Of a stretch of 64,000 nucleotides of DNA, positions 29,478 to 55,150 are shown piece after piece. The position numbers and the translations under genes were made by a program. The stretch is from assembly GCF_000381825.1 (NCBI RefSeq), contig NZ_KB907123.1, positions 1 to 64,000 of the forward strand, read 5' to 3'. The notes beneath the pieces are model-generated. The model was not told the DNA's origin and ran no database searches. It worked only from the letters and a program-made list of their open reading frames with translations. Source of the DNA: Thioalkalivibrio sp. ALJT (lineage in GTDB: Bacteria; Pseudomonadota; Gammaproteobacteria; Ectothiorhodospirales; Ectothiorhodospiraceae). Position 1 is the first letter of the stretch. The number at the start of each line of letters is the position of its first letter.

Positions 29478-31033
29478 ATGGTGTAACGGCGATCCGGGGC
29501 ATGCTCCCCGCGCGTAACTGGTGGTGGCCCCTGGCCGCCCTGGTCCTGTTGCTGGCTGCGACCCTGGTGCTGTTCCAGACGAGCTATCTGTCCATGGTCG
29601 AAACCTGGAGCCGGTCCGAGACCTTCACGCACGGATTCCTCATTGCACCGATCGCCCTGTTCCTCGTCTGGCTCAAGCGGGGAGAACTGGTGGCGCTTGC
29701 CCCGGAACCCAACCAGCTCGCCCTGATTCCCCTGGCCCTGCTGGGTCTGGCGTGGGTCATGGCGGAACTGGTGGATGTCACCTCCGTGCGCCAGTTCGCG
29801 GCTACGTTGATGATCCCGGCGCTGGTCTGGCTGACGCTGGGTACGGCGGTTGTGAGGGTGCTGCAGTTTCCTCTGGCCTATCTGCTGTTCGCGGTGCCAT
29901 TTGGCAATTTCCTTGTGGAGCCCCTGATGGACTTCACGGCCGACTTCACCGTCTATGCGGTCCAGCTGACGGGCATCCCCATCTATCGCGACGGCTTGCA
30001 GTTCGAGCTACCGACCGGGAGTTGGTCGGTGGTGGAGGCCTGTTCGGGCGTGCGCTACCTGATTGCATCGGTCGCGCTGGGTACGTTGTACGCCTACATC
30101 ATGTACCGCAGCCTGTGGCGCCGCCTGGTCTTTGTCTCGCTGGCCATCCTGGTGCCGATTCTCGCCAATGGCCTGCGCGCCTACATGATCGTGATGATCG
30201 GCCATTTGAGCGGAATGGAGTATGCCGCGGGCGTCGATCATCTCATCTACGGCTGGATTTTCTTCGGTCTGGTGATCTTCCTGATGTTCTGGATTGGCAC
30301 GTTGTGGCGTGAGGATGACCCGCCCGCACCGGATCATGCCGACCCGAATGCACCGGTGCCGGCGACTTCCTCCCCGCGATTGGGCCGACTGGCTCGGGCG
30401 ACCCTGCTGGGGGTGCTGGTTGTCGCGGCCGCTCCGGCGTACAGCGAATGGATGAACCAGCGCGACCTCGGCCAGGTGGCGGGCCTGGGGGATGGTGCTT
30501 TTGCCGTGGGTGAATGGCAGTCTCCGGCAGACGAGACGCTCGAGGACTGGCGGCCCGGCTATCACTATGCCCGGGCCGAACGGGGTGGCTGGGTGTCCCG
30601 GACCTCGGCAGAGGGCGTCGCCGTAGGTGCTCACGTCGCGTACTACCGCCAGCAGCATCGCTACGGCAGCATGGTCGGCTGGGACAATACCCTGGCCGGG
30701 CGTGATCGCTCGGACTGGTCGCAGCGCCGTCTGGGATCGCTGACCCTGGACGACGGTGTTCGGGTCGAACGTTTCCGGTTGCGGGGTCCGGGTCGCGAGT
30801 TGCTGGTGTGGCGTCTGTACTGGGTCGGTGGTGCGCTTACGACCAGCCCCCATGAGGTCAAGGTGCGCGAGGCCCTGCAGCGACTGCTGGGCGGGCGCGA
30901 CGATGCCGCCTTGCTGGTCTTTTACGCCGAACATGATGGCAATCCCGATCGCGTCGAGACGGAGTTGCGCCGTTACGCCGAGCGGACGTTGCCAACCCTG
31001 CGCGAGCATCTGGACCAGGTGTACACGCAGTGA
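29474..31033 (+). CDS. xrtA: Exosortase A fused to EpsI domain
   Basis: 519 residues. The N-terminal 280 form eight or so membrane segments of the exosortase/EpsH family, with the catalytic Cys190 in VEACSGVRYL, Arg235 in NGLRAYM and His256 in DHLIYGWIFF. After a proline-rich linker (about 280-300) and a further membrane segment comes an EpsI-type domain (about 325-519). It should cleave C-terminal PEP-CTERM sorting signals at the inner membrane; the substrate candidate in this window is at 57380-58207. ATGA overlap with the upstream gene and GTGA overlap with the next one place it firmly in the operon. Confidence 0.95.
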   Translation: MNGVTAIRGMLPARNWWWPLAALVLLLAATLVLFQTSYLSMVETWSRSETFTHGFLIAPIALFLVWLKRGELVALAPEPNQLALIPLALLGLAWVMAELVDVTSVRQFAATLMIPALVWLTLGTAVVRVLQFPLAYLLFAVPFGNFLVEPLMDFTADFTVYAVQLTGIPIYRDGLQFELPTGSWSVVEACSGVRYLIASVALGTLYAYIMYRSLWRRLVFVSLAILVPILANGLRAYMIVMIGHLSGMEYAAGVDHLIYGWIFFGLVIFLMFWIGTLWREDDPPAPDHADPNAPVPATSSPRLGRLARATLLGVLVVAAAPAYSEWMNQRDLGQVAGLGDGAFAVGEWQSPADETLEDWRPGYHYARAERGGWVSRTSAEGVAVGAHVAYYRQQHRYGSMVGWDNTLAGRDRSDWSQRRLGSLTLDDGVRVERFRLRGPGRELLVWRLYWVGGALTTSPHEVKVREALQRLLGGRDDAALLVFYAEHDGNPDRVETELRRYAERTLPTLREHLDQVYTQ

Positions 31034-32228: not shown

Positions 32229-34139
32229 ATGTGCGGATTAGCCGGTATTCTCGCACCCCATGCCAGTGCTACGCCCGATCGCGGATTGTTGCAGCGCATG
32301 AATGCTGTGCAGTCCCATCGGGGGCCGGACGAAGCGGGTAGCCACCTGGAGCCGGGCGTCGCCCTGGCGCACCGGCGCCTTTCGATCATTGATCTTGCCG
32401 GAGGACAGCAGCCGCTTGCCAATGCGGCCGGTACGGTCGTGACGGTTTATAACGGCGAGATCTACAACTTTCCCGAGCTGGCGCAGGAGCTGCGTGCACG
32501 CGGCTACGCCTTTCGCACTCATTGCGATACCGAGGTGATCGTCCACGCCTGGGAGGAATGGGGCGAGGCCTGTGTGGAACGTTTCCGCGGCATGTTCGCC
32601 TTTGCGGTATGGGACCGTCGCCAGCAGACCCTCTTCCTGGCGCGCGATCGTCTCGGTATCAAGCCGCTGCACTATGCCCGCCTGCCGGACGGGCGCTGGT
32701 TGTTCGCCTCCGAGATCAAGTCGCTGCTTGTCTGCCCGGAACTGTCGCGTGACCTGGACCCGGCCGCAGTCGAGGATTACTTCGCCTTTGGTTATGTCCC
32801 CGACCCGCGCAGTATCTTCCGTCACGTGCACAAACTGCCGCCCGGGCACACCCTGACGCTGCAGCCCGGACAGCGCGAAGTCCGTCCCCGTGCCTACTGG
32901 GACGTGCACTTCGGGGATGCCCGCGCGCTGACGGCGGACAGCGCAACCGACGAGTTGCGCGCCCGTCTCACCGAAGCGGTGGAGATGCGTATGGTGTCCG
33001 AGGTGCCACTGGGTGCCTTCCTGTCCGGTGGGGTAGATTCGAGCGCGGTGGTGGCCACCATGAGCGGGCTGTCGGATGCCCCGGTCAATGCCTGCTCGAT
33101 CGGCTTCGGTGATCCGCGTTTCAACGAGAGCGATCATGCCCGTGCCGTCGCCGAGCGTTTCGGTGCCCGCCATTTTCTGGATCAGGTAGACGCCGATCGC
33201 CTGCGTCTGATTGACCCCCTGGCCTGCATCTACGATGAGCCGTTTGCCGACAGCTCGGCGCTGCCCACCTACGAGCTCTCGCGCCTGACCCGGCAGCACG
33301 TCACGGTCGCCCTGTCGGGTGATGGCGGGGACGAGACCCTGGCGGGTTACCGGCGCTATCGCGGTTTTCGCCAGGAAGAACACCTGCGTGCACGCCTGCC
33401 GGGCGGGCTGCGGCGCCCGCTTTTTGGCGCGCTGGCGGCGCTATACCCCAAGGCGGACTGGGCCCCGCGGCCGCTGCGTGCCAAGGCGACCTTCCAGGCC
33501 CTGGCACGTGACGCGGTCGAGGGCTACCTGCGCAGTGTGGCGGTGGTCGACGACGCCAGCCGGGCGCGACTGTTCAGCCACCGCATGCGCACCGATCTGC
33601 AGGGCTATCATGCCCGCGAGGTCCTGCAGACGCATGCGCAAAACGCCGCGCAGGAGGAACCGCTGGATTTCGTCCAGTACCTCGACATGAAGACCTGGTT
33701 GCCGGGCGATATCCTCACGAAGGTCGATCGCGCCAGCATGGCCCACGGCCTGGAGGTGCGCGTACCGCTACTGGACCATCATTTTGTCGAGTGGGCCGCC
33801 CGGGTTCCGGCGGATCTGCGGCTGCACCGGGGAGAGGGCAAGTATCTGCTCAAGCGCGCGTTCGAGCCGGACCTCCCGCACGAGGTGCTGTACCGCCGCA
33901 AGCAGGGGTTCGTGATGCCCATCGCCGACTGGTTCCGGGGCCCGCTGGCGGATTCCCTGCGCGATGCGGTGTGCGGAGAACGTCTGGCCGACTCGGGCTG
34001 GTTCGACCCCGACCGCCTGGCCCGTCTCGTCGCCGAGCATCAGTCGGCGCGTTCCGACCATTCGCGTACGCTCTGGGCGCTGATGATGTTCGAGTCGTTC
34101 CTGCGCCAGCGCGTTGACGTGGCCGCCACGGATATCTGA
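32229..34139 (+). CDS. XrtA-associated asparagine synthase-like amidotransferase
   Basis: 636 residues. Both halves are intact: the glutaminase domain with N-terminal MCGLAGIL (catalytic Cys2) and the synthetase domain with PP-loop LSGGVDSSAVVA and VALSGDGGDETLAGYRRY. It matches the TIGR03108 subgroup confined to exosortase A loci. It should use glutamine ammonia and ATP to amidate a carboxylate, perhaps of a uronic acid in the polymer. Compare the degenerate relative at 47074-48774. Confidence 0.92.
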   Translation: MCGLAGILAPHASATPDRGLLQRMNAVQSHRGPDEAGSHLEPGVALAHRRLSIIDLAGGQQPLANAAGTVVTVYNGEIYNFPELAQELRARGYAFRTHCDTEVIVHAWEEWGEACVERFRGMFAFAVWDRRQQTLFLARDRLGIKPLHYARLPDGRWLFASEIKSLLVCPELSRDLDPAAVEDYFAFGYVPDPRSIFRHVHKLPPGHTLTLQPGQREVRPRAYWDVHFGDARALTADSATDELRARLTEAVEMRMVSEVPLGAFLSGGVDSSAVVATMSGLSDAPVNACSIGFGDPRFNESDHARAVAERFGARHFLDQVDADRLRLIDPLACIYDEPFADSSALPTYELSRLTRQHVTVALSGDGGDETLAGYRRYRGFRQEEHLRARLPGGLRRPLFGALAALYPKADWAPRPLRAKATFQALARDAVEGYLRSVAVVDDASRARLFSHRMRTDLQGYHAREVLQTHAQNAAQEEPLDFVQYLDMKTWLPGDILTKVDRASMAHGLEVRVPLLDHHFVEWAARVPADLRLHRGEGKYLLKRAFEPDLPHEVLYRRKQGFVMPIADWFRGPLADSLRDAVCGERLADSGWFDPDRLARLVAEHQSARSDHSRTLWALMMFESFLRQRVDVAATDI

Positions 34140-42603: not shown

Positions 42604-43383
42604 ATGAGTGCTTTCGGTGAGGGACATGGGCCGGTTTCCCTGTTGTGGACCGGTGGATGGGATTCGACGTTTCGGTTGCTGCAGCTAGTCGAAGACGAAG
42701 GAAAAGTGGTTCAGCCCTACTATGTCGATGATCCGGAAAGGCCCTCGGCGACGATCGAGAAACGGACCCTCCGGGATCTGCGCTTGCGCATTATCGAAGA
42801 GGGACGCGCAGGCGCGGAACAGATAAAACCGCCCATCATCCTTGCACGGCCCACGCTCGACTCAGACGACCCCATTCTGAGCGCACATGCGGCGATCAAT
42901 GAAAACACCCGCCTGGGCAATCAGTACACCTGGCTGGCGAAGGCGGTAGAAAAAGCCGCTGTTCCTGCGGCAGAAATGAGCATCAAGAAAGGCCACCTGG
43001 CTCACTTGTTCGAGCCCTATCTCAAGGCAGAAGCGGGTGCCGGCGACGGAGCTTTCCGGTTGTCCGAATCTTCCGATCCTGTGCCTGTTCTGTTTCGGAA
43101 TTTTTCCTTCCCCTTGCTCGGGTGGACGTATGACGAGGTCAAGGATTATGCGGAACAAAAGGGCTGGAACGATGTTCTCTCCCGTACCTGGTTTTGCGCG
43201 AACCCCATCTTTTCGAGCAAGCCATGCGGGACTTGCACCCCGTGCGTTCAGTCCATCGAGCGCCCCAGTCGGCGGCCGAAAATCGGGGCGCTGGGCATAC
43301 TCCGGTACTGGCTTGTCGTAAGGGTTCGCCGCATTCTCCCCGCTGCGATCGCCTGGCGTTACCAGGAAGCGTTTCGGCGGTAA
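42604..43383 (+). CDS. QueC-like PP-loop ATPase (copy 1)
   Basis: 259 residues. The PP-loop is LLWTGGWDSTFRLLQLV (about residues 13-29), an S/TGGxDS-type ATP pyrophosphatase motif. Near the C-terminus FCANPIFSSKPCGTCTPC supplies four cysteines arranged as in the zinc site of QueC. The protein lacks other queuosine genes nearby and is clearly related along its whole length to the minus-strand copy at 50380-51147. QueC enzymes adenylate a carboxylate and add ammonia; here the substrate may be a sugar acid. The gene is a little AT-richer than its neighbours, with an A/T-rich inverted repeat (TTGAAAAAACTTTTTTC) before it. Confidence 0.75.
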   Translation: MSAFGEGHGPVSLLWTGGWDSTFRLLQLVEDEGKVVQPYYVDDPERPSATIEKRTLRDLRLRIIEEGRAGAEQIKPPIILARPTLDSDDPILSAHAAINENTRLGNQYTWLAKAVEKAAVPAAEMSIKKGHLAHLFEPYLKAEAGAGDGAFRLSESSDPVPVLFRNFSFPLLGWTYDEVKDYAEQKGWNDVLSRTWFCANPIFSSKPCGTCTPCVQSIERPSRRPKIGALGILRYWLVVRVRRILPAAIAWRYQEAFRR

Positions 43384-43384
43384 A

Positions 43385-43451
43385 GGAGACGCTGCTTGAA
43401 TCGCACGCAAAAGCGACTCGAGCGCGGACGTGCGATTCAATCAGCGTCTCC
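43385..43451. repeat. Compact 67-bp hairpin repeat between convergent genes
   Basis: The arms 43385-43407 and 43429-43451 pair at 22 of 23 positions around a 21-base loop. The loop CAAAAGCGACTCGAGCGCGG and the arm AATCGCACG recur in the element at 56296-56647. It sits between the ends of the QueC-like and acyl-carrier genes and probably works as a two-way terminator. Confidence 0.7.
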
Positions 43452-43478
43452 TGAAAAGCGCTTCCCGTTCTCGCGCGT

Positions 43479-43736
43479 TCAGCGCTTCTCGGCCTGTTTG
43501 AGCTCCACAAAAGCTACCAGCGAACCCACCGTGGCAAACAGCTCCGCGCCGACCTCGTCGTGCTCGATACGGATGTCAAAGCGATCCTCCATTGCGGCGA
43601 CCACGTAGGCCACTGCCATGGAGTCCAGTTCGGGTACATCGCCCATCAGGCGTGTGTCCGTGTTGAAGCGGCGCGTGCGGCCGCCCAGCTCCAGTTCCGT
43701 CTCGAGCATGTCCAGTATGTCCTGCTGAAGGCTCAT
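43479..43736 (-). CDS. Acyl carrier protein
   Basis: 85 residues, acidic and helical, the standard ACP size. The phosphopantetheine attachment Ser39 lies in PELDSMAVAYVVAAMEDRF. Its start overlaps the end of the ATP-grasp/phosphatase gene (ATGA), so the two are made together. It is not near fatty-acid genes, so it probably carries an acyl or aminoacyl group for decorating the polysaccharide. The loading enzyme may be the CapK-like protein (34148-35542) or one of the ATP-grasp proteins; that link is inference. Confidence 0.88.
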   Translation of the reverse strand: MSLQQDILDMLETELELGGRTRRFNTDTRLMGDVPELDSMAVAYVVAAMEDRFDIRIEHDEVGAELFATVGSLVAFVELKQAEKR

Positions 43737-45577
43737 CGCCCTCCCTCCGATTGTGCGGTGCCGATCGCGCTCAAGGCCTCTACACAGGGGCGCAGCCCTT
43801 CCAGGCAGCGGGCGACGGCTTCCGTGCCTTCTCCGTAGGGGTCGCGGATTTGCTGGCCATCGCGGGCAAACCGGTTATCCGGGTGCAGGCTGCCCAGCAG
43901 ATAGGTGCGCCCCGCAGCGTCGGGAAACTGTTGTTGCATGCGTACGCGGTGCAGCCGGTCCATGATGAAGATGAGGTCGGCCTGGCGGACCGTCTCCTGG
44001 TCCAGGCGTTGCGCCCGATGGGTCTCCAGCGATAGGCCGTAGTGCTCGGCGGCGGCGCGGGTGTCGGGATGGGCGGGCGTACCGTCGATCGCACACAACC
44101 CGGCAGATCGAACCGTTATCCCGCCAGCGTCGCCGCGCTCCCTCAGGAGCCGTTCCAGCCACGCGGCCGCAAATGCACTGCGGATGATATTGCCGTGGCA
44201 GACAAATAAGACGGAACGAGCCGTCCGGATGGTCTCTGCATCCGGCGCCCGAGGCCGGGCGCGCAGGCCCAGGGCTGCATAGCGCACCACGCCCCCGGCA
44301 CCGAGCCGCATGATGGGGCGCAGCGCGGCATACCAGCGCCACGGCAGTACCCGTCGTGCCACCTTGTTCCAGACCTGCGCGCTCACCTGACGGATCGCGC
44401 GGCCGAGGTCTTCCAGTGCCGGGCGGGGGTCGGACAGCTTCCAAAGGGCATCCCGCGTGCGGGGCGATACGCCATCCCAGAGGAACGTGCCGAAATCTGC
44501 CGCGGCCCGCCGCGCCGGGTACTCGCCGCTCACGGCCGCAGCAGCTGCCTCGGGCAGACGCAGCAGGTCCCCGGCCAGCCAGCGCATGCGCCGCCCCGGC
44601 GTGTAATTCGGTACTTCGGGGGGGGCTCCATGCGCCAACTGCCACTGATACCAGGGGAATGCGATACCGCATTGCAATGGCAGTGCGATGGAGCCCCAGT
44701 AGCGTCCGTTGATCTCCATCAGCGCGGTTCGCCCGGTCTTCGGGTCCTGGCGAAATTCCACCATCGCCACGCCCTCCCAGCCGAGCGCGCGCAGCAAACG
44801 CAGCGAGTGATCCAGCAGTACCGGGTCGGGCGCTTCGCTCAGGCTGCGCGCCGCCACTCCACCCGCGACCGGGTATTCCTTCAGGCGTCGGTGCTGGAAG
44901 GTCGCGATCGCTGCGCCGTCATGTAACAGCACCTCGATGCCGACCCCGTGCCCGGGCACAAACTCCTGCAGCATCCAGGCATCGCCGGCGCGAAAGTGCG
45001 AAGCCATCAGCGTGTCGAGCGCATCGCGATCCTCGAGGTAGCGCAGCCGCAGGCTCGTCTCCCGGCCCTTGTCGGCCGGTTTTACGATTGCCGGAAAGCG
45101 AAACCCCGCCAGGGTCGTGTCCAGATCGTCTGCGCCTGTCAGCACGCGTGTCTTCGGGATTGGCACCCCCGCCGCCTCCGCGGCCTCCAGCGTCCTGCCC
45201 TTGTCCAGTACCTTGCGGAAGGTTTCCGCCGGCGGGCATAGCAGGTGCAGCCTCGAGCGCCATTCCGTTTCGTGCAGGGCGAGCGCCGACAGCACCTCGT
45301 CCCCGGTGGGAATGATGGTGTCCACGCCGAACTCTTCGATTACCCGGGTGAGGTCTTCCCGGAATCGATCGGGCGAGAGTGCCGGTGGTCGCAGGTAGCG
45401 GTAGCCGGACAGCCACCGCGAGCGCATAGCCGGCGTACCCGGCATCAGCGATGCCGCGACCACGGGGATGCCGCGTTCGGCAAGGCAGCGGGCCAGTGGG
45501 ATCACCACACGCGGCGTGGCCCCGATGAGCAGGGTGCTGCCCTGTGCCGAGGTTCTGTCTTTGCGGCCGGGGTTCAT
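43733..45577 (-). CDS. ATP-grasp ligase fused to low-molecular-weight tyrosine phosphatase
   Basis: 614 residues from ATG 45577. Residues 1 to about 400 are ATP-grasp: KVLDKGRTLEAAEAAGVPIPKT, FPAIVKPADKGR, MLQEFVPGHG and the metal-binding MVEFR...LMEINGRYWGS. After a linker comes a complete LMW-PTP domain (456-614) with the CX5R loop C460-HGNII-R466 and the general-acid motif D579-P in RDPYGEG. The ligase would form an amide or peptide bond, and the phosphatase resembles Wzb, which dephosphorylates tyrosine kinases of EPS export. Fusing both in one chain is unusual. A start at 45661 is possible but unsupported. Confidence 0.88.
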   Translation of the reverse strand: MNPGRKDRTSAQGSTLLIGATPRVVIPLARCLAERGIPVVAASLMPGTPAMRSRWLSGYRYLRPPALSPDRFREDLTRVIEEFGVDTIIPTGDEVLSALALHETEWRSRLHLLCPPAETFRKVLDKGRTLEAAEAAGVPIPKTRVLTGADDLDTTLAGFRFPAIVKPADKGRETSLRLRYLEDRDALDTLMASHFRAGDAWMLQEFVPGHGVGIEVLLHDGAAIATFQHRRLKEYPVAGGVAARSLSEAPDPVLLDHSLRLLRALGWEGVAMVEFRQDPKTGRTALMEINGRYWGSIALPLQCGIAFPWYQWQLAHGAPPEVPNYTPGRRMRWLAGDLLRLPEAAAAAVSGEYPARRAAADFGTFLWDGVSPRTRDALWKLSDPRPALEDLGRAIRQVSAQVWNKVARRVLPWRWYAALRPIMRLGAGGVVRYAALGLRARPRAPDAETIRTARSVLFVCHGNIIRSAFAAAWLERLLRERGDAGGITVRSAGLCAIDGTPAHPDTRAAAEHYGLSLETHRAQRLDQETVRQADLIFIMDRLHRVRMQQQFPDAAGRTYLLGSLHPDNRFARDGQQIRDPYGEGTEAVARCLEGLRPCVEALSAIGTAQSEGGR

Positions 45578-45975
45578 CAGGCTCTCGTTTCGTCGTGCAA
45601 TCGGCTCACGCGGGTCATGATGTGCCTCCAGTCCCCTGCCGGAATTCGCGGATGACTGCATCCGAGAGGTCCCCTGGAAGGGGCTTGCCGAGGACAGGCG
45701 GGTCGCGCCATAACCCGCCGGGGGAAGTGTACTTCAGAACGATCGGATTCGCTGCCGGAGCGATCGCGGTGTCCCGGGAAACCCGACAGGTTCCTGGGGT
45801 TCGCGACCTGTTCGTGGCGATATCTGCATGTCCGTTTTACGTCGTCGGGGCTCGGTATGCTGCTCATCGGGGTGAAATCAAAATGGCCTGGCAGGGGCTT
45901 CAAGGAGGCCCTGTCAATGTGCCTGGGACGCTTCTCCGGTCGCTCAGTCTGCCCCGTTGTCGGCGCATATTGTGC
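45578..45975. other. 398-bp intergenic region with no supported gene
   Basis: Open frames across this stretch have no recognisable protein features and overlap in several frames. It may hold the promoter of the ATP-grasp/phosphatase-ACP pair. I see no clear promoter boxes, hairpin or repeat. Confidence 0.4.
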
Positions 45976-47073
45976 TCAGGCGGTGCCTGTGCGACGTGAC
46001 CACCAGCGGCCGGCCCGCGAGCGTCTGGCGGTTTGTACGGCCAGGCGGAGCGCGGAAGAAGGGGCGGGCAGGAGGTCGGCTGGAAGCTCCACCCCGAACT
46101 CCGCGAGCTGGCGTCGCTTGTCGTCGGTAAGGTAGCCGGCGGAATGGACCTGGACCATGGGAAGGTCCCACTTTGTGTTGCCCTCCATGAGCACGGGGCC
46201 GTTCGGGGTCAGCGCGATATCCCAGCCGATGGACGGTGTGCCCGAGAACGCCTTTGCCGCCCGCATACAGAGCCTTTTGGCCTCGTCGAAGAAGGGAACG
46301 GGCCTGCCGGTCAGACGTTCGCCGGAATCCGGGTGGGAGTCGAACCAGTCGCCGCCAAACTTGGGTTTCGTAACACCTCGAACCAGTTGCCCCGTGTCCA
46401 GATCGATGCCGACGGACAGGCCGCCCTTGTCCCAGTTGTCCGCGGCACTGTGGCTGCGCCCGAAGCGCATGATTGCGCAATCGACGTGGACCTCCCCCGA
46501 AGGCTCGCAGAAGGTGACCATTCGCAGGCTGTTGATGCACGTGGGGTTGATGGCTGCTATCTCGGCATGTTGCTCCAGGCATTCCTGGATCAGGTAGCCG
46601 TGATAAGCGGAATCGTCGAGTGAGTGTTCGTCTTCAGGGAGCGACCTCAAAAGCGGGTCGAGCTCATGGTGGCTGCCGCGAAAATGGTGTATCCCGTCGC
46701 CTTGTTGCCCGCCTCTGGGTTTGATGATCCAGTTGACCCGGGGAGTGTTCGAAAACAGGGGCTCGAAATCGGCCCACTGCCGCAGCGCGGTACCATCGAG
46801 GTGCTGGCCGAATACGGGGTGGTAGAGCCCCAGTGTTACCGGACTGGGGATGCCCAGCCCGGTTGCGATCTGGTGTATCAGCCACTTGTCCTTGAACACG
46901 TACTTTTGACCGCCGCGGTTCACCGCAGGGTGAAAATGCCGATGGATTTGCCGATGGGACATGAAATTCGCACACTCGGCAGACGGCCGATCCAGCAGGC
47001 GATACAGCTCGATTTCCCAGGTCTTGAAACCGCTGCCCAGGAGGCGCGTCTTGTGCATCGGATGGTTGGGCAT
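45976..47073 (-). CDS. Sugar-transfer-associated ATP-grasp protein
   Basis: 365 residues from ATG 47073 behind GGAGGATTGA. It fits the ATP-grasp_ST family: KYVFKDKWLIHQIATGLGIPSP, WIIKPRGGQQGDGIHHF (ATP-binding Lys and Gly-rich loop), YLIQECLEQHAEIAAINP, RMVTFCEPSGEVHVDCAIMRFG and the metal site VLMEGNTKWD. Such proteins occur in polysaccharide loci and probably ligate an amino acid or acid to a glycan precursor. The gene starts directly at the stop of the upstream asparagine-synthetase-like gene. Confidence 0.88.
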   Translation of the reverse strand: MPNHPMHKTRLLGSGFKTWEIELYRLLDRPSAECANFMSHRQIHRHFHPAVNRGGQKYVFKDKWLIHQIATGLGIPSPVTLGLYHPVFGQHLDGTALRQWADFEPLFSNTPRVNWIIKPRGGQQGDGIHHFRGSHHELDPLLRSLPEDEHSLDDSAYHGYLIQECLEQHAEIAAINPTCINSLRMVTFCEPSGEVHVDCAIMRFGRSHSAADNWDKGGLSVGIDLDTGQLVRGVTKPKFGGDWFDSHPDSGERLTGRPVPFFDEAKRLCMRAAKAFSGTPSIGWDIALTPNGPVLMEGNTKWDLPMVQVHSAGYLTDDKRRQLAEFGVELPADLLPAPSSALRLAVQTARRSRAGRWWSRRTGTA

Positions 47074-48774
47074 TCAATCCTCCGGGTGAGGGTGTGACCG
47101 GTCAACGGAACGTTCGAGTGTCGCCACGGTGAGCAGCCCACCAAGGCAATCCATATGTGCCTGCCCCATCTCGCGGCCCGGTTTGAGCGCGGATGACGGG
47201 TCTTTCAGGTGCAAGGCCTCGGGGAGCCATTCGGACCCGGCCAGGCGTTCGGCCGCCTGCTGGCGGAAGGTCGGGTCGTGGCGGGCAATGCGGGCAAAGT
47301 TGCCTTCGGCGGGTTGCAGGAACGGGCGGCCCGGCCAGGCGCGGTCAAGCAGGGGGCGCAACTGGCGCGCGATCGCCTTGCCACGGGAACGGGGCCTGGG
47401 GTCCAGAAGGGGCAGGCCGGTCTTGTCATACGGGATCGCGGCCAGGTTCGGGTCCAGCCGGTGGATGATGCGGCGATAAAGCCAAGAGCCCCGGCGCAGC
47501 TCCCAGGGCAGGTTCAGGGCAAAGTCCATCAATGCATGGTCGAGAGCCGGGGTGCGCACATCCAGATAGTTCTGATTCAGGCGCACAATGTTGTACACGA
47601 GCCGGCGGCTGCGGTTCTCCAGATAATGCCGCTGGCTGGCATCCAGCCCCGAACCGGCCTCCGGGTAGGCCGCGTGGATGTAGTCGGTCAGCAGTCGGAC
47701 CTCTTCGCTGTTGGCGGCAAATCCGAGCGCCGCCGCGTTGTAGCGCATGCGCGCCAGTTGCCCCTGTATCTGTACCTCCCGCGGCTGCTCGCGCAGGAAG
47801 GTTGCCTTGAACAGCAGGTCCTGCAGGAAGCCATCGACGGTTGCCGTGGAACCCGTTGCGGCCAGTCGACGGGCGGTACCCACCAGCCGCCAGTGGGCGA
47901 TGTTGAAATCGCCCGGGCCCAGTGACGGATCGAAGGTTGCCGCGTGCCGCATGTCTTCAGCCGAGTCGAACCGCTCGATCGGGCGACCAAGGTAACGGCC
48001 GATCTTCCGGGCGTAGGGCCACTCGACATTGCCGAGGTCGTGGCAATGAAAAAGCCGGGCGCTGTCGCGGAGCGCTGGGTGCAAGGCCAGGTTGCAGCGT
48101 GAATCCAGCCCGGCCGTGACGGGCATGGCGACCGAGGATGCCACCAGGCTGGTCGCCCCGGCCCGATGCGCCGACAGGAGTCGCTCGACCGCTGCATCCA
48201 GCCAGGGTTCGAGCGGCCCGGCAGGCGCCGTGGGTACGGGCGGGGGTGTCCAGTAGCGACTGCAGCGCGGTGCCGCGCCCGGGTGCGGGAAGCGGCAACG
48301 GCTGGCAGGTGGCAGGAGCGAGACGCCTTCCAGCAGGGTGCGGTGGCCCCAGGGGTTGTCCAGGAAGATGGTGGACAGGGTGCCAATCCGGTCCGGCCCG
48401 GGTGTTCGTGGCAGCAGTTGCGCCAGATCCGTCAGGCGCGAGGCCAGCCAGGTTTGTCCGTCCTGAACCGCCCAGTGTACCGGGATGGTACCCATCCGAT
48501 CCGTGACCACCTCCAGCCCCGCCTCGTCCCACAGGATCTGGAGCCAGGAGCCGTTGCGTTTCTCCGGGGCACACCCTTCACTCCCGGGCAGGTGCCGTTC
48601 CTGCACGAGTATGCCGTTGTGCAGACGTCCAACCCGGTATGTCTGGTGACGGGCATATATATGGAGACGGATGGCGCCCGTCGCAATACGGAGCCAGTCG
48701 TCGGCTTGCGCCGTATCGCCCCGGGGCGTGACCCCGGGATCACGCCCACCGCACACCCCCTGCAGGCTCAGCAT
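47074..48774 (-). CDS. Asparagine-synthetase-like protein lacking the glutaminase Cys
   Basis: 566 residues from ATG 48774 behind GAGGGC. The synthetase half is recognisable by the PP-loop PVTAGLDSRCNLAL and by LLEGVSLLPPASRCRF before it. The N-terminus begins MLSLQG, without the catalytic Cys2, so the glutaminase half is degenerate and the enzyme would need free ammonia or an amine from another source. It may join an amine donor to a carboxylate like beta-lactam synthetase relatives. It is coupled to the ATP-grasp gene downstream. Confidence 0.8.
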   Translation of the reverse strand: MLSLQGVCGGRDPGVTPRGDTAQADDWLRIATGAIRLHIYARHQTYRVGRLHNGILVQERHLPGSEGCAPEKRNGSWLQILWDEAGLEVVTDRMGTIPVHWAVQDGQTWLASRLTDLAQLLPRTPGPDRIGTLSTIFLDNPWGHRTLLEGVSLLPPASRCRFPHPGAAPRCSRYWTPPPVPTAPAGPLEPWLDAAVERLLSAHRAGATSLVASSVAMPVTAGLDSRCNLALHPALRDSARLFHCHDLGNVEWPYARKIGRYLGRPIERFDSAEDMRHAATFDPSLGPGDFNIAHWRLVGTARRLAATGSTATVDGFLQDLLFKATFLREQPREVQIQGQLARMRYNAAALGFAANSEEVRLLTDYIHAAYPEAGSGLDASQRHYLENRSRRLVYNIVRLNQNYLDVRTPALDHALMDFALNLPWELRRGSWLYRRIIHRLDPNLAAIPYDKTGLPLLDPRPRSRGKAIARQLRPLLDRAWPGRPFLQPAEGNFARIARHDPTFRQQAAERLAGSEWLPEALHLKDPSSALKPGREMGQAHMDCLGGLLTVATLERSVDRSHPHPED

Positions 48775-48808
48775 CTGCGCCCTCGCGCGTGTGGGTGACT
48801 TTGGCTGT

Positions 48809-50356
48809 TCATGACGAGGATGAAGCCGAACCTGCCCCGAACAGCTGATGCTTGCCCGTCAGTTTCAGTGCCCAGTGCCGTTTGATCAGCTTGCGCTCGA
48901 CGGCCATTTCCAGCGCTCGGGTCTCCGCGCCCAACGGTCGCCCCGACACGAACCAGAGGGCCAGCAAGACGAGCGCGTAGGCCGTGATACCCAGAGGAAT
49001 CAGGACCAGGAGCTGGAGGGCGCCGGCTGCGCTGCTGGTCAGTTCGGGCAACCACTGCCCGGTTGCCAGCAGGACTCCGAGCATCGTCAGTGACGCAACT
49101 ACCGGCCGCCACACGACGGCGAAGAAGTCCTGGCCGCGCATCTGCAGGAAGTGGGAGACCAGCATCACACCGAAGGGCAACAGCAGGCTTGACGCGAAGA
49201 CCTTGGACCACACCGCCACCTCGAGCCCGTAACCGGCCCATAGCAGATAGGCCATCAGGGGCAGGGTGATCAGGACATCCGCCAGGACAAAGATCCCGAC
49301 CCAATAGGGCTTGTTGAGCGCCATGAACAGTGAGAAGCGGTTGCCGTGCAGGATGCGCGTGGCGCCCAGTATGGCGAGCACCTGAACCAGCGGGATGGTG
49401 ACCAGCCAGTTTTCGCCCAGCAGCAGCCAGATCAGGGGTGCCGCCACGCCGACCATGCCGAGGGCGGCGGGTACGGTGAGCAGGGTGACCATGCCCTGGG
49501 CCAGCAGGTACCCGCGGCGCAGCCGCGGAAGATCGTGAGAGACCTTGGCAAAGCCCGGGAACACGGCGCGCATGATGGGGGCATAGAGTTCGGAGCTGGG
49601 CAGTTTTGCGATGTCGCTTGCGACGCGATAGGCCCCCAGACCGGCGGCGCCCTCCAGGCGGCCGACGATCCAGTCCGGGCCCCGGCCTTGCCCGTACATG
49701 GCCGCGTTGTTGAAGGTGACCCAGGCAGAGAAGCCAATCAGGTCACGCCACCCGGAGAGGCTGAGCCGGGGCCGGAACGGGTGCATGCCATAGCTGAGTG
49801 TCAGGCCGACGATCGCCGATGTCAGGGAGCCGAGGACCAGGGCCCAGTAACTTTGCAAGTAGAAGGCCATGGCAATCGTGACCACGACGGCCGAGGCCTT
49901 CTTGCCAAAGCCGAACAGGAATTCCTTACGGAAGGTCAGCTCCTTGCGAAAGGCAACGATCCCGATGTTCTCGAAGCCGTGCAGGAACGAGATCAAGGCG
50001 AAGGCATAGACGATCGCCTCCACGCGCGCATCGTCGAAGAAGGCGGCGGCATGGGGCGCGGCCAGGATCAGTGCCAGCGCCCCGAGAGACTGGTAAACGA
50101 GCTTGATGGTCCAGGCGGTATCGTAGTGGCGGCGCTCGGCCTTCTGGTCCCGGATCAGCGCGAGGTCCAGCCCGAAGGCGCCGATCGTTTCCACCAGCGC
50201 ATAGAGCGCAAAGGCCATGGCCACCAGGCCGAAATCTTCCGGCACCAGGATGCGCGCGAGGATGACGGTGCTGATCAGCCCCATGAAACGCTGAAAGGTG
50301 CGCAGCCCCATCATCCAGGCCGCGCCACTGGCCACCTTGTTGCCAAGATCCTTCAA
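48809..50356 (-). CDS. Lipid-linked oligosaccharide flippase (Wzx, MOP superfamily)
   Basis: 515 residues from a TTG at 50356, chosen because the family begins at KDLGNKVASGAAWM and because it lies 24 bases after the previous stop. It contains 12-14 hydrophobic segments and the typical ILARILVPEDFGLVAMAFAL and IVGRLEGAAGLGAYRVA runs. It moves undecaprenyl-linked repeat units across the inner membrane. It is the only flippase in the window. Confidence 0.88.
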   Translation of the reverse strand: MKDLGNKVASGAAWMMGLRTFQRFMGLISTVILARILVPEDFGLVAMAFALYALVETIGAFGLDLALIRDQKAERRHYDTAWTIKLVYQSLGALALILAAPHAAAFFDDARVEAIVYAFALISFLHGFENIGIVAFRKELTFRKEFLFGFGKKASAVVVTIAMAFYLQSYWALVLGSLTSAIVGLTLSYGMHPFRPRLSLSGWRDLIGFSAWVTFNNAAMYGQGRGPDWIVGRLEGAAGLGAYRVASDIAKLPSSELYAPIMRAVFPGFAKVSHDLPRLRRGYLLAQGMVTLLTVPAALGMVGVAAPLIWLLLGENWLVTIPLVQVLAILGATRILHGNRFSLFMALNKPYWVGIFVLADVLITLPLMAYLLWAGYGLEVAVWSKVFASSLLLPFGVMLVSHFLQMRGQDFFAVVWRPVVASLTMLGVLLATGQWLPELTSSAAGALQLLVLIPLGITAYALVLLALWFVSGRPLGAETRALEMAVERKLIKRHWALKLTGKHQLFGAGSASSSS

Positions 50357-50379
50357 CGCCCTTCGTCTCCCCTGGTCGC

Positions 50380-51147
50380 TTAGTAGCTGCGCAGTTTGCG
50401 TTTGCACCAGCGCTTGAAACGGTACCCGCGGGGCAGGCGTTCCAGGATGCGGACAAGCCGGCCATTCAGTCGGGCGCGCCAGGGCAGGCGATCGCCCACT
50501 CCCCTGGAAACGACCATCCGGCACGGCACGCAGAATCCGCAGGGTTGGCCGGAGCGCGTGGGCATATGGCAGAACCACGTCTGCTCCAGCAGGTCCAGGA
50601 ACCCGTGCTGCCGCGCATGGATGCGCATCTCGGCCTTGCCGATGTGCAGGGTGGGAAAGCTGAACAGGTTGAAGAGGCTCTCCGCCGTGGCTTCGTCCAG
50701 CGCCGGTTGAACGGGTTCCAGCCGATATTCGCGCTGGTCCGGGGGCAGATCGGGCGCCAGAAAGAAGAAGTTTTCATTGTACTGCACGCATACCTCGATG
50801 CCCTGCAGGCCATGCTGGCGCACCAGTTCCGCCAGCCAGATGTACTGTTCGCCGATGCCCCGTGTGCGTACCAGTTCGGCAAATTTTCTGCGTAACTCGG
50901 AGTCGGGGCGGGCGGCCCGTGCGTGCAGCACTCTCGGCTCGCCCAGAACGCCCTTGTCCGCGCGCTGGTTGATCTGGCGGCGGAGCTGCGCCATCGTCCG
51001 GGTTTCCTGCTCGATGGATTGCCGAGTCTCGTCGCGCACGTAGACCGGGGTGACCGATTCCCCGTGGTGCAGGACCAGGTCGAGCACGCGAAAGGTCGAA
51101 TCCCAGCCCCCGGTCCAGAATACGGTGCGCCGAGGCGGCGTACCCAT
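50380..51147 (-). CDS. QueC-like PP-loop ATPase (copy 2)
   Basis: 255 residues from ATG 51147 behind AGGAG. It shares with the copy at 42604-43383 the PP-loop VFWTGGWDSTFRVLDLV, the central QYIWLAELV, FNLFSFPTL and the cysteine set FCHMPTRSGQPCGFCVPC. A basic tail (FKRWCKRKLRSY) is unlike QueC. It heads the minus-strand run flippase, asparagine-synthetase-like, ATP-grasp. The pair suggests two related ATP-dependent reactions in polysaccharide synthesis. An earlier in-frame start at 51195 is possible. Confidence 0.75.
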   Translation of the reverse strand: MGTPPRRTVFWTGGWDSTFRVLDLVLHHGESVTPVYVRDETRQSIEQETRTMAQLRRQINQRADKGVLGEPRVLHARAARPDSELRRKFAELVRTRGIGEQYIWLAELVRQHGLQGIEVCVQYNENFFFLAPDLPPDQREYRLEPVQPALDEATAESLFNLFSFPTLHIGKAEMRIHARQHGFLDLLEQTWFCHMPTRSGQPCGFCVPCRMVVSRGVGDRLPWRARLNGRLVRILERLPRGYRFKRWCKRKLRSY

Positions 51148-51312
51148 GGTGGTCGCTCCTGACGTCGCATTCTGTGAAGCGGTCGATTCCTGCACCCCCC
51201 GGCCCCTCCGGCTATCGGCTCCCTGGTGCCCGGATTGTCGGGTCGCAGGGGCTGCGCTGTATGATTCGGCCTACTGTAATGCAGAAGGGTGGCTCCGGTG
51301 TCTGGAACCAGC

Positions 51313-52473
51313 ATGCCGCCGTCTGTTCAACGTTACCTGAAAGAGGGGGCAGCCTTGCAACTGCGTTTTGTTGGCGATGTTCGCCTGATGCGGGACCGGA
51401 CGGCTATGCCCGGGGCTGTGGGGCCCGGCCCGTTCGGTCGCGTGCAGCCGCTTCTGGACCACGCGGATGTCCTGAGCGGCAATCTGGAATGCTTCTTTAC
51501 CCATGATATGGAAAACCGGCAGGGGCACTGGAAGCACAACAAGGTACTGCGGGTGCCACCTGCCATGTGCAGCAGCCTGGTGGACGCCGGCTTTGATGTG
51601 CTGAATCTTGCCAACAACCATGTCATGGACGGTGGCGCCGATGGGCTGGAAACGACCATCCAGACCCTGGATCAAAACGCGTTGCCCTGGATGGGCGCGG
51701 GGCGGTCTCTCGGCGAGGCGGTCGCCCCTGCATTGCTCGAGCGCGAAGGAAAGGTGATTGCGTTTCTCGCGGCAGGCGACAACTCGCAGGACTATGCCGC
51801 GCCCGAAGGGCCGGGCGTGGCCCCGATGGAGCCGTTTGCCGATTTGCTGGCGCGCACTCGCCAGGCCGCCGAGGGCGCGGATCTGGTCGTGGTGCAGTTG
51901 CATGCGGATCTGGAGTTCAGCGAGGCGCCGGCACCCTATCGCGTCAGGCTGAGTCGGCAGTTGATCGACCACGGGGCCCACCTGGTCATCCAGCACCACC
52001 CGCATGTGGTTCAGGGGGTCGAGGCATATGGCGGGGGGCTGATTGCCTATTCGCTCGGGAACTTTGTCTTCAACGTGCATGGAAATTCGTATCAAAGTGG
52101 CTACCCCGATGCCCGCTACGGGTGGGTATTGTCGGTAGAAGTCGACTTCGCGGAGGATGGGCCCCGCGTGCGGGGATGGCATATGGAACCGGTCTGGATT
52201 GCCGAGGATCATCGCCCGGAGCCCCCCGCTCCGGAACGGCGCGAGGCGGCGCTGGTGGAGTTTCGTCGTCGCTGCGAGCTGTTAACGGACAAGCGCGCAA
52301 TGCGCCGTGCCTGGCGCCAGCGGAGCTGGCGCGAGGCACGCTACCACGCGCTCATGGCGTACTACACGCTGCGGCGAGGCCGCCCGCTGACGGCGATCGC
52401 AGACCTGCTCGGTCTGCCGCTGCGCCCACGCAACCGACACTGGCTTCTCGGGGTGCTGGGTCTGGGCCGCTGA
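51313..52473 (+). CDS. CapA-like metallophosphatase-fold protein
   Basis: 386 residues from ATG 51313 (or GTG 51289). It belongs to the PGA_cap/CapA family: LRFVGDVRLMRD, NLECFF, LANNHVMDGG, IQHHPHVVQGVE and YSLGNFVF supply the Asp, Asn and His residues of the metal site. CapA takes part in poly-gamma-glutamate capsule synthesis or transport, and relatives occur in polysaccharide loci. No signal peptide is visible. Divergent from the QueC-like copy 2 with a 165-base gap. Confidence 0.85.
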   Translation: MPPSVQRYLKEGAALQLRFVGDVRLMRDRTAMPGAVGPGPFGRVQPLLDHADVLSGNLECFFTHDMENRQGHWKHNKVLRVPPAMCSSLVDAGFDVLNLANNHVMDGGADGLETTIQTLDQNALPWMGAGRSLGEAVAPALLEREGKVIAFLAAGDNSQDYAAPEGPGVAPMEPFADLLARTRQAAEGADLVVVQLHADLEFSEAPAPYRVRLSRQLIDHGAHLVIQHHPHVVQGVEAYGGGLIAYSLGNFVFNVHGNSYQSGYPDARYGWVLSVEVDFAEDGPRVRGWHMEPVWIAEDHRPEPPAPERREAALVEFRRRCELLTDKRAMRRAWRQRSWREARYHALMAYYTLRRGRPLTAIADLLGLPLRPRNRHWLLGVLGLGR

Positions 52474-52680: not shown

Positions 52681-53688
52681 TTAGGGAAGCCGCCCGGTGA
52701 GTCGCTGGCCAGTCCAGGACAGGCCGGACAGGAACAGGTAAGGCCACGTGCGCCAGTAGGTGGGCTGGTTGCGCCCCGCTTCAAGAAAGGACGGCGCGGC
52801 TGCAGCCCGGTCTCCACTATGGAACAGGTTGTAGCCCATGGAGAAATGCAGGCCAAAGCGCCTGTTGCGAAGCTCGCGCTGCGTGATTCCCTGACCGTCG
52901 GGGCTGTTGAGCCCCCACGTCTGGATCGCGGTCTCCAGGACCGAGGCCGCGTAGTTGACCGGTGCCCATTTTCGGGTCGCGCTTTGCGGGTGGCGCCGGT
53001 ACAGCGCGAAGGAACGCGCCAGGGTTAGAACGGGGCTCAGCCGCGAGGCGCGCAGCCAGTAGTCGTAGTCCTGGGCCAGGCGCAGGTCCTCGCGGAATTG
53101 GCCGACGGTTTCCACCAGCTCCCGGCGCATGACCACGGCCCCGGTCCACACGATGGTGTCCAGCAGCAGGCGGTGGTAGATCCAGCCGGAGCGCTCCGGG
53201 TCCAGGGCCTGCGGGTCTTCCTCTCCGGTTTCGCGGGCGAAGGCGCCCGGGGCGCGCCACATGCCGTTCTCGTCCGGGCTCCAGAGCGCGAACTCACTGG
53301 CCACCATGGCGCATTCGGGATGTGCCCGCAGGCATTCGATCTGGGCCTGCAGCTTGCCGGGCAGCCAGACATCGTCCCCATCCAGAAAGGCTATCAGGTC
53401 CCCGCGTGCCGCCCGCAGGCCCACGTTGCGGCTGGCTCCTGCGCCGCTCGAGGGCTGCGCGGTTTGCAGTAGTTGCACCGGGCCCTGAAAACCGCGTGCC
53501 ACAGCGGCCGTATCGTCTGTAGAGCCATCGTCGATGACGATAATCTCCAGATGGGGATAGTCCTGATCGACGATGCTCTGCAAGGTCTCTTCCAGGAAAT
53601 CCGCGCAGTTGCACGCCGGTACGATCACCGACACAAGGGGGCTGTCCGTCAGGACCGGCCAGAAGGGAGCAGGAGGGTTGCTTGGCAC
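52681..53688 (-). CDS. Glycosyltransferase family 2
   Basis: 335 residues, GT-A fold. Nucleotide-sugar motifs: VSVIVPACNCADFLEETLQSI, IIVIDDGSTDDT, and the metal-binding DGDD in LIAFLDGDDVW, then LAQDYDYWLR as the catalytic ED-type region. It starts 13 bases after the O-glycosylation ligase stop, so the two are co-transcribed. The sugar is unknown. Confidence 0.92.
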   Translation of the reverse strand: MPSNPPAPFWPVLTDSPLVSVIVPACNCADFLEETLQSIVDQDYPHLEIIVIDDGSTDDTAAVARGFQGPVQLLQTAQPSSGAGASRNVGLRAARGDLIAFLDGDDVWLPGKLQAQIECLRAHPECAMVASEFALWSPDENGMWRAPGAFARETGEEDPQALDPERSGWIYHRLLLDTIVWTGAVVMRRELVETVGQFREDLRLAQDYDYWLRASRLSPVLTLARSFALYRRHPQSATRKWAPVNYAASVLETAIQTWGLNSPDGQGITQRELRNRRFGLHFSMGYNLFHSGDRAAAAPSFLEAGRNQPTYWRTWPYLFLSGLSWTGQRLTGRLP

Positions 53689-53701: not shown

Positions 53702-55150
53702 TTAGCGTAACCGGCCGGGATCCATGATGGTGCCGCCGGTCGCAGGCGGGGTGCCGGGGGGCGCCGGCGGAGGCTCGGGTTTCTGTTCGGCCGTCTGCGC
53801 TGCAGGGGCGTACCGGACAGGAGACTGCCTCACGGGGGTGGTGGTTGGCATCGATTCCAGGAGTTCACGGCGCAGCACAATGGCCATGGCGATAAAGGCC
53901 AGGTAGAGGTCGAAATACGCCAGACTCAGGAAGGCCCCGGCAATCATGTAACCGATCAGCCCGATCGCAAGTGCCCATGCCCATTCGGCAATCCACAGGG
54001 TCTCCTCCCGCCGTCGGCCTTCACGACTCAGGCGGAACAGCGTCAGCAGGGTGAAGCCGATTAGCATCAGGAACAGCGCGAGCCCGACGAAACCATGCTC
54101 GCCCAGCATCTGGAAGTAGATGCTATGTGCGGCGATTGGCCCGCTAACGACCGGGTTGTCGCGATCCAGATAGCTGAGCCAGATCTCGGGGGGTAGACGC
54201 TGGATGCTCATGCCGGAGCCGGTGAGGGGGTAATCCATCGCCACGTTCCATGAGACGTTCCAGGCATCCAGGCGCCCAATGGCGGATGCATCCTCTTCGT
54301 AGTGGATCAGGGTATCGATCTGGTGCTCGATCTTGTCGGGGACCGTAAAGCCGATCACTGCGATGGCCAGCAGGCCGGTTGCAATCATGGTGCCCTTGTA
54401 GCGCATCTTCAGGAAGATGAGCGGGAAGGTAATGGCCAGGGCCACCCAGGCGCCACGGGAGTGGGTGCCAATGATCGAAATCAGATGGAACCAGAAGCCC
54501 AGGTACAGGCCCAGACCGATCAGCTTGTGGTGGCGCTCGTAAAGCGGGAAGTAAAAGGGCAGTTCAAAGCGCCCCTGGTATACCTGGCGGGCCAGGACCA
54601 GCACCAGGGGAAGCGTCATCACCAGCGCGAGGCCGATATCCGTATTGCCCCGGATGAACGAACCCGGTGGGCCCAAAACCATGCCGCCGAAACCGCTCGC
54701 AAGGGTGTACGGACCGCCCTTGAAGCCGAAGAAGGCGATGGACAGCGTGATCACGGCGAGCACGGCCATGGTTCGCACCTTGCCAAAGACCAGCATGGGT
54801 GCGATCAGCGTGAACAGCATGATCTTCATCACGGTGTCCCAGCGCTGGAGGGCCACCTCGGGCTGCCACGCGAAGAACAACGAGATGATGGTGATGTGCC
54901 CGAACAAGATCACCATCAGTACGCTTTCCCGTGTCAAGGGGAGCGTCCGGCGGTCCTTGTTCAGCACAAGTGCGGCCAGGGTGGCGAGCCCGACGGCCAT
55001 TGCCACCGGCATCGTCTGCAGGAACCCCCAGGTCAGGCGGTGGGGGTTCATCAGTCCTACCCAGTACCACATGGCGATACCGACCCATGGTCGCCAGAGG
55101 ATGAAGGGCAGCGAGCCGAAGATCAAAAGGGCAAACAGGATGTCGCGCAT
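53702..55150 (-). CDS. Putative O-glycosylation ligase, exosortase A-associated
   Basis: 482 residues with about ten membrane segments and a Wzy_C-type ligase region: GTHSRGAWVALAITF and GSGMSIQRLPPEIW, then HSIYFQMLGEHGFVGL. It begins MRDILFALLIFGSLPFILWRPWVGI, the signature of TIGR03097 proteins that accompany exosortase A. It is predicted to attach glycan to PEP-CTERM proteins, which are often Ser/Thr-rich, on the outside of the inner membrane. The last 50 residues are a Pro/Ala-rich tail. Confidence 0.9.
   Translation of the reverse strand: MRDILFALLIFGSLPFILWRPWVGIAMWYWVGLMNPHRLTWGFLQTMPVAMAVGLATLAALVLNKDRRTLPLTRESVLMVILFGHITIISLFFAWQPEVALQRWDTVMKIMLFTLIAPMLVFGKVRTMAVLAVITLSIAFFGFKGGPYTLASGFGGMVLGPPGSFIRGNTDIGLALVMTLPLVLVLARQVYQGRFELPFYFPLYERHHKLIGLGLYLGFWFHLISIIGTHSRGAWVALAITFPLIFLKMRYKGTMIATGLLAIAVIGFTVPDKIEHQIDTLIHYEEDASAIGRLDAWNVSWNVAMDYPLTGSGMSIQRLPPEIWLSYLDRDNPVVSGPIAAHSIYFQMLGEHGFVGLALFLMLIGFTLLTLFRLSREGRRREETLWIAEWAWALAIGLIGYMIAGAFLSLAYFDLYLAFIAMAIVLRRELLESMPTTTPVRQSPVRYAPAAQTAEQKPEPPPAPPGTPPATGGTIMDPGRLR

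Follow-up and report, generated by a model that had tools for sequence, protein, structure and literature searches.

Enzymes of the QueC fold make a base found in tRNA or DNA and, since 2025, have reportedly been known to conjugate that base to defense proteins. In PP-loop enzymes, a carboxylate attacks the alpha-phosphate of ATP, yielding an acyl-adenylate and pyrophosphate, and a nitrogen then attacks; formation of a nitrile requires a second activation, namely that of the amide. A 2026 survey of PF06508 (Pfam QueC) defined canonical QueC by the motifs YxQxHxxE, VPxRN and YPDC (PMC13329287), and Cap9, a QueC-like ligase of type IV CBASS (cyclic oligonucleotide-based antiphage signaling system), acts on a CD-NTase (cGAS/DncV-like nucleotidyltransferase; PMC11996544, PMC13329287). 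Here we describe PPa and PPb, two QueC-like proteins encoded in the first 64,000 nt of contig NZ_KB907123.1 of Thioalkalivibrio sp. ALJT (assembly GCF_000381825.1; this stretch is referred to as the window). They belong to a branch that has retained the PP-loop and the four cysteines of QueC but lacks its base-recognition motifs, and we propose, at a probability of roughly 50%, that they are ATP-dependent carboxylate-amine ligases, likely acting on sugar acids or on amino-acid decorations of them.

42604..43383, + strand: PPa, QueC-like PP-loop protein of 259 aa, with WTGGWDSTFR, GNQYTWLA and C198/C208/C211/C214
50380..51147, − strand: PPb, QueC-like PP-loop protein of 255 aa, matching PF06508 at 24.9 bits

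The first-pass annotation had called the two proteins related on the basis of a shared WTGGWDSTFR, a QYxWLA block and four cysteines. Indeed, BLASTP aligned them at 33% identity over 215 aa (E 5e-36), with WTGGWDSTFR, G-x-Q-Y-x-W-L-A and C-x9-C-x2-C-x2-C common to both. The start of PPb was taken as the ATG at 51147, preceded by a ribosome-binding-like stretch (GGAGCG); the mechanical open reading frame (ORF) reaches a GTG at 51195. PPb exceeds the 22-bit cut-off of the Pfam QueC profile and PPa, at 13 bits, remains under it. The ratio of nonsynonymous to synonymous substitution rates of PPb (0.11–0.13) reflects purifying selection. PPa has no close orthologue and looks like an exchanged module, being GC-poor (0.58 vs about 0.66 around it) and only about 36% identical to the second copy of two sister genomes.

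By profile and predicted fold, PPa and PPb belong to the QueC superfamily. PF06508 matched 98 of 100 family members at E ≤ 1 (best 8e-8) and TIGR00364 matched 71 at E ≤ 0.1. A family profile searched against Protein Data Bank (PDB) sequences ranked B. subtilis QueC first (E 4e-4; a phmmer search with PPa against the same collection gave no match), and a profile-profile comparison with 20 queC sequences gave an E-value of 1.5e-7 over 195 columns at about 13% identity, the PP-loop, a conserved Lys and the four cysteines falling in register. AlphaFold models of PPb and PPa (pLDDT, the per-residue confidence score, of 94 and 92, respectively) led to the same superfamily: PPb matched Cap9 (Z 12.3), QueC (10.7) and QatC (9.8), with Cap9 the sole Foldseek hit below 1e-3, and PPa likewise placed Cap9 first (Z 12.3), above a tied group of PP-loop enzymes.

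Scanning 84,980 species genomes with the PPa/PPb pair returned 167 relatives (loci), of which the best 80 were kept and read. The family spans more than ten phyla, including Pseudomonadota, Bacteroidota, Balneolota, Bacillota, Chloroflexota, Verrucomicrobiota and Planctomycetota, and was present in 12 of 47 genomes of the same order and only 2 of 274 genomes sampled class-wide; co-occurrence statistics were therefore run within carriers and within the order. The TGGWDS branch is thus widespread yet rare, an accessory gene, and its loop and motif set occur in none of the clusters described by the 2026 survey, in which clusters 7, 8 and 10 are archaeal (PMC13329287). Paired or tandem copies were found in 11 of the 80 loci, with up to four in one of them (L029). 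Named halophiles and organisms from soda-lake sediments are numerous among the carriers (L009–L088). Plasmid record collections held no match for PPa, PPb or a Bacteroidota member, and phage record collections none for the Bacteroidota member. The apparent large fusions of four loci (L053, L096, L099, L102) resemble read-through of an upstream frame in GC-rich DNA rather than real domains, and were rejected.

Thirteen residues were invariant in the 100 members (numbered as in PPb without the initial Met): W10, G13, D15, S16, Y35, E47, Q100, P164, C192, C202, C205, P207 and C208. Because the patterns used to retrieve the loci included WTGGWD or GxQYxWLA, conservation of these two stretches is partly selected; Y35, E47, P164 and the four cysteines lie outside the search pattern. 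The PP-loop reads TGGWDS instead of SGGxDS, the second G, the D and the S being kept in 100 of 100 members and the first S replaced by T, a reading that the search pattern favored. Aromatic residues conserved around the loop (W10, W14, W103, W190, F191) would fit a pocket that holds a sugar or adenine. The conserved active-site residues have not been lost across the family, an outcome that the first-pass annotation had named as speaking against its interpretation: the PP-loop Asp and Ser and the four-cysteine zinc-site motif (C192, C202, C205, C208) are retained.

In contrast, YxQxHxxE, VPxRN and YPDC were found in none of the 100 members, vs 20 of 20 queCs from relatives; as judged from these sequences, recognition of the old substrate, 7-deazaguanine, has been lost. 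In line with the first-pass annotation, the annotated window block contains no queuosine genes, and the 2.66-Mb genome encodes a canonical queC beside queE on another contig, as do most relatives (22 of 25). Neither are homologues found mostly in queuosine operons: the 25 most frequent neighbor families of the family loci include no queuosine family. Moreover, 16 of 50 carrier genomes lack a canonical queC, including the named isolates Pontibacter vulgaris and Fodinibius sediminis, and four of the 16, all metagenome-assembled genomes (MAGs), also lack the QueD family (PF01242). Use of 7-carboxy-7-deazaguanine (CDG) by the family is argued against by the 16 carriers without queC, the QueD family being too common to decide. 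That PPa and PPb are extra queuosine or 7-deazaguanine enzymes, with true QueC function or CDG use, is consistent with the fold and the PF06508 match, but given the absence of all three recognition motifs, the queC–queE pair elsewhere in the genome and the carriers devoid of queC, we regard this as highly improbable.

Comparison with canonical QueC reveals the same fold, PP-loop position, zinc cysteine spacing (C-x9 here vs C-x8) and conserved Lys after a Pro-Leu strand; the differences are the TGGWDS loop, the three missing motifs and the lack of a queuosine operon. Cap9, the top structural match of both proteins, shares the PP-loop ATP site, the zinc cysteines and the reuse of the QueC fold as a conjugating ligase, but keeps CDG-recognition residues that are rare or absent here (Y/FxQ(x)5E in 3 of 100 members, YxDC in none), and the window block contains no CD-NTase. 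QatC of the qatABCD defense system resembles the family in its QueC fold with a remodeled substrate site. However, QatC (about 400 aa) carries long extensions at both termini and comes with QatB, neither of which is seen here (255–259 aa), the window neighbors are glycan genes, and the padloc QatC model matched only nine of 100 members (best 8e-4). N-acetyl sugar amidotransferases of the WbpG/PseA type (PF06508 cluster 5, TIGR03573) are likewise PP-loop enzymes in polysaccharide loci, but have an SGGxDSxY loop, another cysteine order (CxxC(x)6CxC) and 300–400 aa; TIGR03573 gave no match among the 25 families listed for the 100 members. Finally, ATP-grasp ligases of the ATPgrasp_ST and TupA types and AsnB-like envelope-polymer ligases are proposed to do the same job of joining carboxylates and amines in glycan decoration. 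They belong to the unrelated ATP-grasp fold or to another PP-loop family, and are here neighbors and partners rather than homologues.

The window holds an exosortase-A (XrtA) exopolysaccharide locus comprising XrtA, an XrtA amidotransferase, a chain-length protein, an XrtA deacetylase, glycosyltransferases, an XrtA-associated O-ligase and a PEP-CTERM protein. Gene calls are longest non-overlapping ORFs, and those nearest to PPa and PPb, together with the genes defining the locus type, are as follows:

29474..31033, + strand: exosortase A (XrtA), which sets the locus type
32229..34139, + strand: XrtA/PEP-CTERM system amidotransferase (TIGR03108)
43479..43736, − strand: acyl/peptidyl carrier protein (PF00550), adjoining PPa
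43733..45661, − strand: ATP-grasp (PF15632) and low-molecular-weight protein tyrosine phosphatase (PF01451) in a single fused protein
45976..47073, − strand: sugar-transfer associated ATP-grasp ligase, ATPgrasp_ST (PF14397, E 1.4e-45)
47074..48774, − strand: AsnB-like protein with weak Asn_synthase, GATase_7 and macrolactam-cyclase matches
48809..50578, − strand: Wzx/MOP-type polysaccharide flippase (PF13440, E 1.6e-65), overlapping PPb as called, start codon uncertain
51289..52473, + strand: CapA/PGA_cap-family protein (PF09587)
52681..53688, − strand: GT2 glycosyltransferase
53702..55150, − strand: exosortase-A-associated O-glycosylation ligase (TIGR03097, E 4e-117)

Between PPa and PPb thus lie a carrier protein, two ATP-grasp proteins, an AsnB-like protein and a flippase. 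The AsnB-like protein is probably not glutamine-dependent because it lacks Cys2 and its PP-loop is degenerate (TAGLDSR). The top NCBIfam match of the CapA/PGA_cap protein is MslH, the epimerase of a lasso-peptide C-terminal Trp, and a CapA/PGA_cap gene directly adjoins the QueC-like gene in several loci. A PaaK/F390-like AMP-forming ligase (34148–35542) constitutes a further carboxylate-activating enzyme of the locus.

The closest named relative at the locus is Thioalkalivibrio sp. ALJ7. In two sister genomes, a syntenic locus has kept PPb, Wzx, the AsnB-like protein, CapA, the glycosyltransferase and the O-ligase, such that PPb together with Wzx, AsnB-like and CapA genes is conserved in three genomes. 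The first-pass annotation had placed the two copies at the ends of an amide-ligase gene block. While a carrier, ATP-grasp and AsnB-like block does separate them here, they are not fixed block ends, because both sister genomes have the second copy next to the first one, with the CapA gene in between.

Across the family, the commonest Pfam families among 138 operon neighbors were glycosyltransferases, ATPgrasp_ST (7), polysaccharide flippases, PGA_cap (4) and TupA ATP-grasp (3). Carrier genomes (n = 49) encode 16 accessory ATPgrasp_ST proteins, a count that leaves out the conserved strong copy (E below 1e-85); four of them are located no more than 10 kb from a PP gene vs 0.08 expected, an about 50-fold enrichment. 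Within the order, nine of 14 PP loci fall within 10 kb of an accessory ATPgrasp_ST, six of the nine representing a single orthologous arrangement. Other copies adjoin a FemAB-type protein or a Mur ligase fused to peptidyl-tRNA hydrolase, the latter fusion being found in two exopolysaccharide loci of Marinobacter, where its gene lies downstream of the QueC-like one (L061:10815-12788, Pfam-tested, and its homologue L075:6127-8001). EamA exporters adjoin tandem copies. Padloc scans of the 138 operon neighbors gave scattered hits only, several of them generic helicases, and a defense role was rejected as no systematic defense context emerged. Overall, among the 56 loci that reach 15 kb or more, genes for a glycosyltransferase, a flippase, CapA or ATPgrasp_ST occur in 26. 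The exopolysaccharide context put forward at first pass holds for the XrtA locus of the window, and glycan genes accompany about half of the family loci.

Relatives were also present on five IMG/VR contigs (L133–L137). Three of these (L135–L137) represent one phage of about 134–145 kb recovered from three metagenomes, in which the terminase gene adjoins the PP gene. Here, the PP domain forms the C-terminal part of a 601-aa protein with a RimK-like (ATP-grasp-like) N-terminal part, and the preceding gene encodes a UDP-glucose/GDP-mannose dehydrogenase (L135:2516-5660). The N-terminal domain of this fusion recurs in two other loci: the gene immediately following the PP gene of L049 encodes it (BLASTP E 7e-13), and in L029 it is encoded next to the four PP copies (profile E 6e-7). 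In the two other contigs, L133 and L134, the PP gene is in the vicinity of tail or structural genes; in L133 (2097-4940), as in Oceanobacillus L041 (7509-9893), the PP gene follows that for a large zinc-carboxypeptidase-domain protein, and the next genes of L133 resemble a holin and a lysin by sequence. The RimK-like phage fusion beside a sugar-acid dehydrogenase, the lost 7-deazaguanine motifs, the carriers without queC and the ATP-grasp enrichment all go beyond the first-pass annotation.

Our proposal draws on the retained PP-loop and zinc cysteines, the fold, the lost 7-deazaguanine motifs and, in part of the family, a neighborhood of glycan and amide-ligase genes. In this model, the PP-loop would bind ATP, and a carboxylate would be activated to an acyl-adenylate with release of pyrophosphate, which an amine—an amino acid, an amino sugar or ammonia—would then attack to form an amide. 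In the window, the carboxylate would most likely be that of a hexuronic acid, or of an amino-acid decoration of the exopolysaccharide or of its precursor on a carrier. The ATP-grasp, AsnB-like, carrier and CapA proteins may take part in this decoration pathway as well. Activation is supported by the PP-loop that the family has kept, and an amide on sugar acids or their amino-acid decorations by the presence of amide-forming and sugar-acid-forming partners; attachment to surface sugars is probable because the base-recognition parts are lost and the neighbors build surface sugars and amide bonds. Adenylation, the amide product, the substrate and the order of steps are what we infer from this combination. 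As for the nitrile chemistry suggested at first pass, nothing beyond ancestry supports it. A literature search for PP-loop proteins with ATP-grasp polysaccharide ligases found no paper.

Several observations weigh against carboxylate-amine ligation on sugar acids. ATP-grasp genes and ligases vary among the three sister loci, so no fixed partner set is shown, and in 30 of the 56 long loci no glycan gene was recognized within 10 kb, so that what the members have in common may be a wider function or another one. Zinc binding is predicted from the four cysteines only, and PPa carries Tyr176 in place of the near-invariant Lys, so its activity could be altered. Lastly, the RimK-like call in the phage fusion is weak (Pfam E 0.0024, below cut-off; PDB RimK E 0.04).

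Among the alternatives, a simple amidotransferase would use ammonia, with the nitrogen derived from glutamine via a partner, to convert the carboxylate of a uronic acid into a primary uronamide, equivalent to step one of QueC. QueC does use ammonia (PMC13329287), sugar-acid-making dehydrogenases are present in several loci, and the enzyme is small and single-domain. Yet the annotated window block contains no glutaminase or HisH/HisF-type partner, and the neighbors are amino-acid-joining ligases rather than ammonia donors, leaving this variant unlikely. Still less probable is a modification of protein N-termini or carriers in the manner of Cap9, in which a small carboxylic acid would be joined to an amine of a protein, e.g. 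a carrier, the AsnB-like protein or a tail protein of a phage. Although Cap9 is the closest structural match, a carrier protein adjoins PPa and two phage copies neighbor tail or structural genes, the CDG-binding signature that Cap9 keeps is absent from 100 of 100 members, and neither a conserved small partner protein across loci nor a systematic defense context among operon neighbors was seen.

An equally doubtful explanation is soluble metabolite chemistry, e.g. of an amide-type osmolyte or a secondary metabolite, with the exopolysaccharide linkage being incidental in a subset. It would account for the half or so of loci without glycan genes, the many carriers that are named halophiles or soda-lake MAGs, and the EamA exporters next to tandem copies, but sits poorly with the enrichment of accessory ATPgrasp_ST, with a PPb–Wzx–AsnB–CapA set kept in three genomes and with phage copies that point to surface or virion chemistry. 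More tentatively than carboxylate-amine ligation itself, and as a reading that we would not yet favor, the family may form a new class of enzymes that use the QueC fold to adenylate the carboxylates of sugar acids on precursors of surface glycans and to couple them to amino acids or amines, in the form of interchangeable, often multi-copy modules that are also phage-borne, once fused to an ATP-grasp-like partner, and alter surface or virion glycans. If sugar-acid ligation is true, the separate TGGWDS branch would add an ATP-dependent step to surface polysaccharide biosynthesis, amidated glycans would become predictable from genomes, and phages would gain another possible tool to change surface chemistry.

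A third PF06508 paralogue (L002; contig C3:171281-171850) is encoded ~107 kb past the window end and carries an SGGIES loop and a CxxC pair. It has a counterpart in Thioalkalivibrio ALJ7 (C11:311042), is neither queC nor a member of the TGGWDS family, and perhaps corresponds to cluster 4 of the survey.

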